64,000 nt of DNA from Paraburkholderia sabiae (GTDB taxonomy: Bacteria > Pseudomonadota > Gammaproteobacteria > Burkholderiales > Burkholderiaceae), in contig NZ_CP125295.1 of NCBI RefSeq assembly GCF_030412785.1, positions 620,001 to 684,000 of the forward strand, given 5' to 3'. Below, piece by piece: positions 18,223 to 21,508 of the stretch. The position numbers and the translations under genes are program-made. Each line of letters opens with the position of its first letter. Positions within the stretch are counted from its first letter, which is position 1. The notes below the pieces were generated by a model, which was not told the origin of the DNA, searched no databases, and saw nothing but the letters and a program-made list of their open reading frames with translations.

Positions 18223-18876
18223 TCAGGTCGTAGCGTGCAGTGTATCGACCGGAAGCGGCACGCGCGCCGTCAGCACGTCGTCGACGAGACCATAAGTTTT
18301 TGCCGCATCCGCGGACATGAAGTTGTCACGATCCGTGTCCCTTTCGATCTGCGTAAGGCTTTGGCCCGTCCGCTCGGCGAGCAGACTGTTCAGGCGTCCG
18401 CGCAGATACAGCACTTCTTTCGCCTGAATCTCGACGTCGGACGCCGTGCCCTGGCCGCCGCCCGATGGCTGATGGATCATGATGCGCGCGTTCGGCAGCG
18501 CATAGCGCTTGCCCGGTGCGCCCGCCGCGAGCAGAAACGTCCCCATGCTGGCCGCGAATCCGGTGCAGAGCGTCGATACATCGGGCTTGATGAACTGCAT
18601 CGTGTCGAAGATCGCGAGGCCGTCATAGACCGAGCCGCCCGGCGAATTGATGTAAAACGAAATATCCTTGTCAGGATTCTCCGATTCGAGGAACAGCAAC
18701 TGCGCGACGATCAGGCTCGCCGACTGGTCGTTGACGGGCCCGACCAGAAACACGATCCGCTCGCGCAAGAGCCGAGAATAGATGTCGTAGGCGCGCTCGC
18801 CGCGGCTCGATTGCTCGATGACGGTCGGCACGAGATTGAAGCCGGAATTGGTCGGCGTAGAGAAGTGACGATGCAT
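18223..18876 (-). CDS. ATP-dependent Clp protease proteolytic subunit, paralogue
   Basis: A 217-residue ClpP-family serine peptidase with an intact triad: Ser in [16 protein letters not shown], His in [18 protein letters not shown] and Asp in [13 protein letters not shown]. The structural motif [24 protein letters not shown] is also present. It stands away from clpX and tig, with a short basic N-terminus ([17 protein letters not shown]) and GFAASMG instead of the usual GQAASMG, so I read it as a second ClpP. The ATG at 18876 has GAGGAA upstream. The minus-strand promoter at 18957-18931 matches the ECF41 pattern, suggesting control by the divergent sigma factor. Confidence 0.88.
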
Positions 18877-18930
18877 GCGTTCCTCGCTGATTGACTGAAG
18901 GGCCCGCGCGGTGCGGGATTTCAGTCGCAT

Positions 18931-18957
18931 GACGCGAAAGCGGGGCGCAGCGTGACA
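18931..18957 (-). promoter_or_regulatory. ECF41-type promoter for the ClpP paralogue
   Basis: Minus strand: TGTCACG (18957-18951), exactly 16 bases, then CGTC (18934-18931). This fits the TGTCACA-N16-CGTC pattern known for ECF41 sigma factors with one mismatch, 54 bases before the ClpP start. Confidence 0.6.
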
Positions 18958-18977
18958 AGGATATTTTTGCGTCGACG

Positions 18978-19004
18978 TGTCACAGCGCGGGCGGCCTGTC
19001 CGTC
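18978..19004 (+). promoter_or_regulatory. ECF41-type promoter for the sigma factor gene
   Basis: Plus strand: TGTCACA (18978-18984), exactly 16 bases, then CGTC (19001-19004). It matches the ECF41 promoter pattern exactly and lies 32 bases before the sigma gene start, suggesting autoregulation. Confidence 0.65.
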
Positions 19005-19036
19005 AAGCCGATGAACCAGCCACAGGAGCGGCACGC

Positions 19037-19996
19037 ATGGACCAGATGGACAGAGAGAAGTCGGCGGAATTCGAGGCGGTGCGCGCGAAGCTCTTCGCGC
19101 TCGCTTACCGGATGCTCGGCAGCCGCGCAGAAGCGGAAGACGTCGTCCAGGATGCATGGCTCAAGTGGCATGCTGCCGACGCGAGCGAATTGCGCTCGTC
19201 GGCCGCGTGGCTCACGACAATCACGACGCGGCTCGCGATCGACCGGTTGCGTCATCTGCAGATCGAGCGCACGACGCGTTCGGGCGGCTGGATGCCGGAC
19301 CCGTGGCTCGAAGGACTCGCGCCGTCGGCGGAAGATCTGGCGTTGCAGGCCGTGCAGATGTCATATGGCGTGATGTTGCTGCTCGAACGCCTGAAGCCCG
19401 AAGAGCGCGCGGCCTTCGTGCTGCACGAGGCATTCGAATGCGACTACGCGGAGATCGCGAAGATTCTCGCGAAGACGCCCGCGAATTGCCGGCAGATGGT
19501 GCACCGCGCGAAAGAGCGCCTGCAGCGTGAAGGCGTGCCGGCGAAACGCGCCGATCCCGCCGCGCATGCGCGTATCGTGGAGCGCTTGCGGGCGGCGATG
19601 GAAGCGCAGGATCGCGTGGGACTCGTTCGGCTCTTCTGCGACGTGCCGAGCGTGATCAGCGACGCGCCCGAAACCGTCGACGCTGTTGCGACGGCCGATC
19701 AGGTTGCCACCACGCTGTCGATGCGCGGCGGTGGCGATCAGATGGAAACGGTGTCGATGAACGGCATGAGCGCCGTGGCGTGGATGCGCAATGGCGAGAT
19801 CGACGCGTTGCTCGATATTTCGATCGACGAGGACGAGCGCATCGTCGCATTGCGCATCGTGACGGGCGCGCTGCGCCTCGCGCCCGCGACGCGCGTGTTC
19901 GGACGCGCGGCGATCATGCGGCTGCTGCAACCCGTCAGCAGCCAGGCCGCGTCAATTACGATGCGCGGCCACTTCCCAGTTGATATCGACGCATAG
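19037..19996 (+). CDS. ECF41-type RNA polymerase sigma factor with fused SnoaL-like domain
   Basis: A 319-residue sigma-70 family protein. Region 2 is FEAVRAKLFALAYRMLGSRAEAEDVVQDAWLKW; region 4 is LKPEERAAFVLHEAFECDYAEIAKILAKTPANCRQMVHRAKERL. Between them, GGWMPDPWLEG is a variant of the WLPEP-type motif of ECF41/SigJ. Residues about 190-319 form a SnoaL-like C-terminal extension that regulates the sigma factor in cis in this group, in place of an anti-sigma factor. The ATG at 19037 has AGGAG upstream; the ATG at 18977 lies inside the promoter and is excluded. The 3' end overlaps the converging EAL gene by 45 bases. Confidence 0.88.
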   Translation: MDQMDREKSAEFEAVRAKLFALAYRMLGSRAEAEDVVQDAWLKWHAADASELRSSAAWLTTITTRLAIDRLRHLQIERTTRSGGWMPDPWLEGLAPSAEDLALQAVQMSYGVMLLLERLKPEERAAFVLHEAFECDYAEIAKILAKTPANCRQMVHRAKERLQREGVPAKRADPAAHARIVERLRAAMEAQDRVGLVRLFCDVPSVISDAPETVDAVATADQVATTLSMRGGGDQMETVSMNGMSAVAWMRNGEIDALLDISIDEDERIVALRIVTGALRLAPATRVFGRAAIMRLLQPVSSQAASITMRGHFPVDIDA

Positions 19997-21226
19997 CACC
20001 TGCATGCCGCGCGCGGTTTCCGCCGCGATCGACGCCGTCACGCACAGGTGCGCTTCGTTGATCGACAGATAGGGCGGCGTCAGGTGCACCTGACCGGGTG
20101 CGCGCACGGCCTCGATGAAATACGGGCGGCGTTCCCAGCTCGCGCCTTCCGAATGCAGGAGCGGACGGAAGCGCTTGGCGCGTTGCGACGCGCGGCCGGT
20201 CGGCAGCACGTTGTCGCCGATCTGGCGGCCCGAGCCGTCGAGCAGAAAGCAGCGCGCCGTTTCGCGCAACGCGAGCAGCGGCGCGGTCGCGTCAGCCATC
20301 GTTTCGCCTTCGACCAGATGCGCGCTCGCCGATTCGAGAGCCGTGACGAACGGCGCGAGCCGCTCGGACTGCGCACGTTCGCGCGCGGCCACGCGTTGCC
20401 GCAGCGCCGCCGACAGTTCGTCCATCAGATTGACCGTCGCCTGACGCGCGACGGGCTCGACGCTCGGCGCGGCGAAGAAGGAGCCCTGCACGAAATCGAC
20501 GTTGCATTCGAGCGCGATCAACGCGTCGCGCTCCGTCGACAGACCGCCCATCAGCACGAGTTGCCCCGATTCATGCAGCATCGACACGATACCGGGCAGC
20601 ACGCGCTCGATATGCGAATGCTCGCTGGCTTGCGCGAGGATGCAGCGATCGAGCGTGACGATGTCGGGCCGCAGATTCCACACGCGGTCGATGTTCGAAT
20701 GCTTCGCGCCGAAACCGTCGAGCGCGATCAGAAAGCCGGACTTGCGCAGCGAATCGATGATTTCGGCGAAGCGCGTCGTTTCGCCGCCCGCCTGTTCGGA
20801 CACTTCGAGCACCACGCGTTGCGCGGGCAGGCCGAGCGCCTTGAGGCCGGCGAGTAGCGCGTCGCCGTAGCTCGTGTCCATCAGCGCAGCGGGATGGAGG
20901 CTCAGGAAGAGCCATTCGTCGTGGCTGTCGAATGCGTTGAAGTTGCCCAGATGCAGCGATTCGGCGAGACGACCGAGTTCGAGCAGATCGCCGCGCCGCG
21001 CGGCTTGCGTAAAGACTTCGGCGGACGGCACCTGCTTGCCGTTCTCGTCGTGAGCGCGCAGCGACGCGTGATAGCCGATCGCGCGGCGGTGAGAAACCGA
21101 GAAAACCGGCTGAAACACGCTGAAAACCGTGTAGCCGCCATACCGGACGGTGCGGCGCGAGCCTTCATCGCCCGCTACGGGGCGTGGAGGCTGGAAGCCG
21201 GGAGGATCGAGTTCGATCATGCTCAT
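19952..21226 (-). CDS. Degenerate EAL-domain protein with C-terminal sensor-like domain
   Basis: A 424-residue soluble protein. Residues about 35-275 follow the EAL phosphodiesterase fold (FQPVFSVSHRRAIGYHASLRAH ... VVLEVSEQ ... IALDGFGAKHSNIDRVWNLRPDIVTLDR), but key residues are changed: HAS replaces EAL, the DDFG pair reads DGFG, and the EGVET glutamate block reads MGGLSTE. It is probably not an active c-di-GMP phosphodiesterase. The C-terminal ~140 residues (RCFLLDGSGRQIGDNVL, PYLSINEAHLCVTASIA) look like a PDC/Cache-type sensor domain. Start is uncertain: ATG at 21226 or 21220, neither with a good ribosome binding site. Confidence 0.75.
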   Translation of the reverse strand: MSMIELDPPGFQPPRPVAGDEGSRRTVRYGGYTVFSVFQPVFSVSHRRAIGYHASLRAHDENGKQVPSAEVFTQAARRGDLLELGRLAESLHLGNFNAFDSHDEWLFLSLHPAALMDTSYGDALLAGLKALGLPAQRVVLEVSEQAGGETTRFAEIIDSLRKSGFLIALDGFGAKHSNIDRVWNLRPDIVTLDRCILAQASEHSHIERVLPGIVSMLHESGQLVLMGGLSTERDALIALECNVDFVQGSFFAAPSVEPVARQATVNLMDELSAALRQRVAARERAQSERLAPFVTALESASAHLVEGETMADATAPLLALRETARCFLLDGSGRQIGDNVLPTGRASQRAKRFRPLLHSEGASWERRPYFIEAVRAPGQVHLTPPYLSINEAHLCVTASIAAETARGMQVLCVDINWEVAAHRN

Positions 21227-21508
21227 CGTGTCGGTTATCGGTTGAAAAGCGGGCGTTGTGACGAGGCGGGCCGTGCATGGCCGCGAGAGATTCAAGTTTA
21301 CAGGATAGGGCAGCAAGAAACATGCGCATGACGAAACGCCGCGGGCTCTCTGCTGCTGTTCATGCGTGAGTTGCGCCTTGTTCGGCGCGTTCGCCTTTAA
21401 TTGTGCGCCGCAATCGCCAATGCTGTCATGCGCGTGAGAAACGAAGCGCACAGCGGTGGTGCGGCGCGCGCCCCATTAGCGTTCGAGCGTGACGCGCGGC
21501 GTGCGCAC

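Follow-up and report, generated by a model that had tools for sequence, protein, structure and literature searches.

In the 64,000-nucleotide window analyzed here (contig C1:620001-684000 of a 9.9 Mb genome), clpP2, encoding a second ClpP protease subunit, lies on the minus strand and is divergent from a gene for an ECF41-like sigma factor on the plus strand. The two genes quite probably form a dedicated sigma-protease module, in which the sigma factor would activate both itself and clpP2 from one bidirectional promoter. This reading of sigma autoregulation with clpP2 co-induction is based on the conservation of the promoter sites, the co-inheritance of the two genes and the published promoter motif of ECF41 sigma factors. 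The sigma factor that reads both sites is very probably the adjacent one, as judged from these sequences. The features of the locus are listed in Table 1.

Table 1. Coordinates of the clpP2-sigma factor locus in the window.
Feature	Position	Strand	Remarks
clpP2, second ClpP protease subunit	18223..18876	-	217 aa; stop codon included in the coordinates
clpP2 ribosome-binding site GAGGAA	18880..18885	-	From the sequence
clpP2-facing promoter TGTCACG-N16-CGTC	18931..18957	-	-35 element TGTCAC in 74, CGTCAC in 33 and GGTCAC in 1 of 108 loci
20-bp gap separating the -35 boxes	18958..18977	.	Conserved A/T tract at 18961-18968
Sigma-facing promoter TGTCACA-N16-CGTC	18978..19004	+	-35 element TGTCAC in 108/108 loci
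Sigma gene ribosome-binding site AGGAG	19024..19028	+	From the sequence
ECF41-like sigma factor gene	19037..19996	+	319 aa; stop codon included in the coordinates; Sigma70_r2 and r4_2 matched
Coding part of the sigma C-terminal domain	19553..19942	+	Residues ~173-302; from models, Foldseek, alignment and motif count
EAL-domain gene, convergent	19952..21451	-	3' end overlaps the 3' end of the sigma gene by 45 bases

The preliminary description of this DNA had reported two back-to-back 27-base sites with 16 bases between their elements, and both were found exactly where it had placed them, with a stronger case than it had made. The sigma factor most likely starts at the ATG at 19037, which is preceded by AGGAG, rather than at the GTG at 18977 of the longest open reading frame. 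Similarly, clpP2 most likely starts at the ATG at 18876, with GAGGAA upstream, because the ATG at 18930 of a longer frame abuts the -10 element; the longer product from 18930 could not be made from the clpP2-facing promoter. The -10 elements would then lie 32 and 54 bases from the start codons of the sigma gene and clpP2, respectively. The neighbors of the pair in the window include EAL and TetR genes, and neither an anti-sigma factor nor an unfoldase gene was present among the neighbors scanned.

A search of the genome for the one-sided pattern TGTCAC-N17-CGTC gave 25 matches, compared with seven for the reversed pattern used as a control, and therefore a lone site means little. A search for the two-sided core gave a single match in the genome, and among 399 genomes of the order only two, which belong to this genus, contained it; the reversed control had no match in those two genomes. 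Two of the 25 one-sided sites belong to the locus of the pair itself. Twenty others were checked, and all of them fall within some open frame of at least 100 aa, which means little in GC-rich DNA. One of the candidates, at C1:825105, recurs in seven of seven close genomes and was rejected as a target, being inside a conserved coding frame. As well, an intergenic TGTCAC-N17-CGTC is present at G000:C1:5449237-5449263 (L398 near base 2475, reversed), 361 bases before a frame which by eye resembles a DEAD-box helicase, and similar sites occur in several close relatives. The site may be an additional target or may belong to a different conserved element, and no target is claimed because the DNA following the site is equally conserved.

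The window's sigma factor was searched against 117 genomes of the same genus, and the best match, which had an E value of 1e-49 or better in 108 of them, was examined in each of these. In all 108 loci a divergent clpP adjoins the sigma gene, and the core GTCAC-N17-CGTC is present on both sides. The -35 boxes are separated by 20 bp in 91 loci, by 18-24 bp in 104 and by more in four. Among the 91 loci with a 20-bp gap, both -10 elements, TGTCAC on the sigma side and GTCAC on the clpP side reach 2.0 bits per column, while the two spacers average 0.5 and 0.6 bits. Such invariant elements around freely drifting spacers read as a promoter signature, rather than as coding or general conservation. The columns of the A/T tract in the gap carry 1.2-2.0 bits in the same loci, and this tract is possibly a common site for the alpha subunits of both RNA polymerases. 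The clpP-facing -35 element, which reads CGTCAC or GGTCAC in 34 of the 108 loci, speaks against the module. An alignment of the intergenic region from relatives had been proposed as a check, with loss of one site from a still paired locus as the outcome that would count against the idea; both sites were conserved in all 108 loci, and no such loss was seen within the genus.

According to Wecke 2012 (PMC3426412), the ECF41 motif is TGTCACA-16+/-1-CGTC, which was derived from transcription starts mapped by 5'RACE in two other species. Promoters of this type thus face both genes of the pair and are conserved, as had been suggested from the window.

Loci from other genera were taken from part of the matches (30, and 20 more). 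In two additional genera of the family, 13 loci were examined (11 and two, the latter in the genus of Pararobbsia silviterrae), and all of them possess a divergent clpP. Their clpP-facing sites are perfect in five loci and carry one mismatch in eight. The sigma-facing sites are perfect in five, carry one mismatch in five and carry two mismatches, as CGTAAC-N16-CGTC, in three, where autoregulation may have been lost. At L272, one of these three loci, a different position offers a further candidate that has one mismatch and a spacer of 17 bases. The distance from site to site is variable in another genus, where the -35 and -10 elements of each site are mostly still paired at N16. At seven control loci from other genera of the family (L278-L284), the sigma gene is not linked to clpP. 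In a second family (195 genomes), two of the best 30 loci are clpP-linked with both sites and 28 are not; the divergent pair is also present in Pseudoduganella flava, which groups with these two linked loci. The EAL and TetR neighbors of the window were not found around five loci (L140, L187, L274, L360 and L361), the flanks of which are partly short, and hence the unit seems to consist of the two genes themselves. An isochorismatase-fold gene immediately follows the linked sigma gene in Pseudoduganella flava (L140 6094-6843) and at L361 651-1385, where it is possibly an extra operon member. Isochorismatase genes also occur near the locus in the window, but were rejected as a third partner since identity is 22-27% over short stretches.

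A scan for the two-sided core over one genome per species (~85,000 species) matched at least 119 stretches. Sigma and ClpP lie on opposite sides in at least 61 of the stretches listed, and four more (L116, L121, L132 and L173) are apparently the same locus cut by the end of the sequence. Another 15 of those listed carry an ECF41-like sigma without a ClpP match (two pairs among the 15 share one sequence), and 39 carry neither sigma nor ClpP. Pfam scans of ten partners among the 15 found CMD in five, one of them below the cut-off, together with alpha/beta hydrolase, DoxX-like, short-chain dehydrogenase, flavodoxin-fold and epimerase matches. The back-to-back geometry with a gap of ~20 bp was observed at L119, L135, L145, L154, L180, L184, L206, L211, L215 and L223, where ECF41-like genes from several phyla face CMD, SDR, epimerase, DoxX-like, flavodoxin-fold or hydrolase genes. 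These partners indicate that ordinary ECF41 loci in other phyla also use this geometry.

The two genes have also been inherited together. In a tree of the first 215 residues of the sigma factor (74 rows, 36 linked to clpP and 38 not), the linked sigmas fall on one side of a branch with support of 100/100. In a ClpP tree of 61 rows, 35 linked ClpP2 are split from 26 housekeeping-type ClpP with support of 100/97, for which the program warned of two long branches that join; the rows of both trees are a subset of loci picked for spread. Ten genomes of the same genus that lack the sigma factor were examined. Nine of these have a single ClpP, and the tenth, G008, has a housekeeping ClpP and a fragment of ClpP2. 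In G008 (L390 2524-3369, contig G008:C9), a clpP piece corresponding to residues 103-219 of a relative abuts, head to head, a sigma piece corresponding to residues 165-346. Neither promoter pattern is left at the locus, as if a single deletion had taken out the intervening promoters together with the 5' part of each gene. The preliminary description had also suggested looking for clpP beside ECF41 genes: clpP accompanies all 108 linked loci, but no clpP match was found near any of 20 other ECF41 genes examined from the genus.

The sigma factor itself is best described, on its sequence, as a divergent offshoot of ECF41 and not an orthodox member, which would nevertheless work like ECF41. Its match to SigX4 (TIGR02957) over residues 11-277 scores 210.5 bits, below the curated cut-off of 323.25, and that to SigJ (NF007214) over residues 6-275 scores 205.9 bits, below the cut-off of 271, while the other ECF41 of the same genome passes both with 375.8 and 315.5 bits, respectively. 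The solved structure closest to it by sequence is SigJ (5xe7). A C-terminal extension of at least ~100 aa, as used to define the group, is present, since sigma2-sigma4 end at about residue 165 of 319. Linked sigmas of the genus range from 270 to 439 aa in length (L001 and L007-L113).

The extension of ECF41 sigma factors carries conserved motifs named DGGG and NPDKL. Both are absent from all 108 linked sigmas of the genus and from the linked sigmas of other genera that were checked. Ordinary ECF41 of the same genus (20 loci) and of the family (10 rows, with one gene twice) carry DGGG without exception (30 of 30) and NPDKL in all but one (29 of 30). None of them has clpP beside it. The second family repeats this division, with neither motif in the two linked sigmas, whereas DGGG occurs in 27 and an NPDKL-type motif in all of the 28 others. 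The linker motif WLPEP reads WMPDP in the window; the exact form occurs in 57 of the 108 linked sigmas, and W[LM]P[ED]P in 70. According to the alignment, the linked sigmas carry a further stretch, NR..G..A...LL, while ordinary ones end soon after NPDKL. The designation as an ECF41 sigma factor is therefore kept in part: the promoter motif and the extension agree with it, but the missing motifs and the scores under the curated cut-offs do not.

A fused SnoaL-like C-terminal domain, which had also been proposed, found no confirmation. Pfam gave no SnoaL match in the sigma factor up to an E value of 1. In a VIA-align view, the rows covered mainly residues 1-170. The models show helices, four strands and two more helices for the C-terminal domain, with low to moderate confidence. 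With the AlphaFold model of the whole protein, the top Foldseek match was the ECF41 sigma factor SigJ (E value 4e-11), for which the superposition was poor (TM 0.19, rmsd 25). The domain alone (mean pLDDT 64.8, 52 rows) had a best PDB match at an E value of 0.17 and no clear match to SnoaL, so that Foldseek on the domain was unconvincing.

ClpP2 is a regular ClpP by its profile matches (Pfam CLP_protease, E value 1.7e-83; TIGR00493, 324.9 bits, above the cut-off of 308.6) and is 74% identical to the other ClpP of the genome. The active site, consisting of Ser110, His135 and an Asp cluster, is present. Its columns do not vary across the 122 ClpP2 rows compared, which include one locus twice, and the residues also occur in L360 and L361. 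ClpP2 is likely to be an active protease in the cell. Ten positions set ClpP2 consistently apart from ClpP1, several of which are near the active-site His and in the SPGGSV(YD)G stretch.

Taken as a mechanism, the ECF41-like sigma factor would direct RNA polymerase to two similar promoters placed back to back. One of them would serve the sigma gene itself and provide positive autoregulation, while the other would drive clpP2, whose product is an additional ClpP that keeps its active site intact. An activating signal, acting directly or indirectly through an altered C-terminal domain, would release the sigma factor, and the amounts of sigma factor and ClpP2 would then rise together. ClpP2 may join a housekeeping unfoldase (ClpX or ClpA), and the amount or kind of degradation would change. 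Previous work on two ECF41 sigma factors showed that the neighboring gene is the target, and that these sigmas become active when the extension is shortened and inactive when it is removed (Wecke 2012, PMC3426412). By analogy, we infer a comparable behavior of the extension in the clpP2-linked lineage. In this group of soil bacteria, the regulator and additional protein destruction are thus probably switched on together.

The two promoters allow other readings. The inverted TGTCAC boxes form an inverted repeat with a spacing nearly fixed at 20 bp, and could be an operator for a dimeric repressor or activator instead of two promoters. This is extremely improbable, since at all 108 loci both sides keep CGTC 17 bases after GTCAC despite the drifting spacers, since each -35 element mostly keeps its own -10 element at N16 in the genus where the distance between the sites varies, and since the same arrangement precedes ECF41-like genes with CMD, SDR or epimerase partners in other phyla. 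The promoters might also be read by the other ECF41 of the genome (C2:426604), or by both sigma factors, with the adjacent one not being the main reader. The other ECF41, which is 35% identical to the adjacent sigma factor, could read the same motif and should recognize a similar one, and in the relatives G001, G042 and G083 sites TGTCACAAA...AACGTC lie at a distance of ~1.2 kb from it. We consider it very unlikely as the main reader, however, because none of the ten same-genus genomes that lack the adjacent sigma factor has an intact clpP2, and because the sigma and ClpP trees agree by eye in their main groups. The sites near the other ECF41, TGTCACAAACG...GAAACGTC at G083:C3:750798, G042:C3:510771 and G001:C3:1845099, are likely a separate ECF41 unit.

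Two further proposals concern ClpP2 rather than the promoters. ClpP2 may be a regulatory subunit in mixed rings with the housekeeping ClpP instead of a protease in its own right, which would be compatible with the promoter model and is a tentative possibility: the identity of 74%, the ten consistent differences and the lack of an unfoldase among the neighbors scanned favor it, while the invariant active-site residues do not. Somewhat less probable, and speculative, is a feedback loop which extends the co-induction model without excluding it. Here, ClpP2 with ClpX or ClpA would degrade the sigma factor through its Ala-ending tail and so end the response as a pulse, standing in for the control that was lost with DGGG and NPDKL. 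A precedent is sigma AntA, an orphan ECF sigma factor of Streptomyces which ClpXP degrades via a C-terminal Ala-Ala (PMC7142297). Of the linked sigmas, 99 of 108 end in Ala, as do 12 of 16 outside the genus. Of the 26 sigmas whose genes are free of overlap with the EAL gene, 20 have a terminal Ala, which mostly follows hydrophobic residues (LVLA, LALA, VVA, AIAA), and so do four of the five with an overlap of four bases or fewer. Only three of the 20 non-linked ECF41 of the genus end in Ala (20/26 against 3/20, Fisher p 7e-5, uncorrected for kinship).

Against this loop, 77 of the 108 loci, including the window, have a sigma tail that overlaps the EAL gene by more than four bases, and in 75 of them the overlap is exactly 45 bases. 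The tails of the 45-base overlap are of a common FPVDIDA type and antisense to conserved EAL codons, so their conservation proves nothing, and the conserved Ala-ending tail was dropped as proof of a degron. In the window (19952-19996), the codons for the sigma tail FPVDIDA are antisense to those for VDINWEV at the end of the EAL gene. Moreover, few tails end in Ala-Ala, and the tail in the window is polar before the last Ala. A broader form of the feedback idea is slightly more doubtful. It supposes that, before the two families separated, an ECF41-like lineage that had lost the regulatory motifs typical of the group adopted a duplicated clpP as a target of its own, and that ClpP2 feeds back on the sigma factor via the C-terminal tail, which would make a self-limiting switch whose activity is set by degradation capacity and not by a small ligand. 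Co-induction of the sigma factor and ClpP2 from the shared promoter region remains the preferred explanation.

In at least two families, an entire sigma sub-lineage is thus paired with a protease subunit. If the module operates as proposed, the pairing would tie a group of orphan ECF sigma factors, for which no anti-sigma factors are known, to regulated proteolysis. The pair is also an inexpensive system in which to ask what activates ECF41-type sigmas and what duplicated ClpP subunits of Proteobacteria do. No description of ECF41 paired with ClpP was found in the literature searched; the neighbor tables of the 2021 ECF reclassification, in which ClpP may be noted, lie outside it. The presence of two clpP copies has been reported for P. 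xenovorans, in an account that does not mention ECF (PMC12117332).

Compared with the ECF41 sigma factors that have COE partners (Wecke 2012, PMC3426412), the pair described here shares sigma2-sigma4 with a long C-terminal extension, the promoter TGTCACA-N16-CGTC and the divergent arrangement of sigma and target genes, both of which are often preceded by the motif. Unlike these systems, where the partner is a CMD, an oxidoreductase or an epimerase, the partner here is a Clp protease subunit at all 108 loci; about 30% of ECF41 are reported to have no COE neighbor (PMC3426412). The linked sigma also differs from ordinary ECF41 in lacking DGGG and NPDKL and in scoring below the SigX4 and SigJ cut-offs. 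The pair would work like ECF41, yet lacks several of the family features that were looked for.

The view of ClpP as a new partner, as put forward from the window, holds with respect to the COE partners, while control of clpP by an ECF sigma factor as such is already known. SigH of Corynebacterium glutamicum has clpP1, clpP2 and clpC among its targets, and differs in having the anti-sigma factor RshA and a wide stress regulon (PMC3489674). Sigma AntA, whose level is set by ClpXP via its Ala-Ala tail, is the model for the feedback loop, and differs in that its description in PMC7142297 carries, where AntA is treated, no statement of clpP control by it. A parallel in the use of second ClpP genes is clpP3clpP4 of Streptomyces, with the dedicated activator PopR; PopR is called a transcriptional activator and not a sigma factor, and, as in the loop considered above, the activator is itself degraded by ClpP (PMC7142297).
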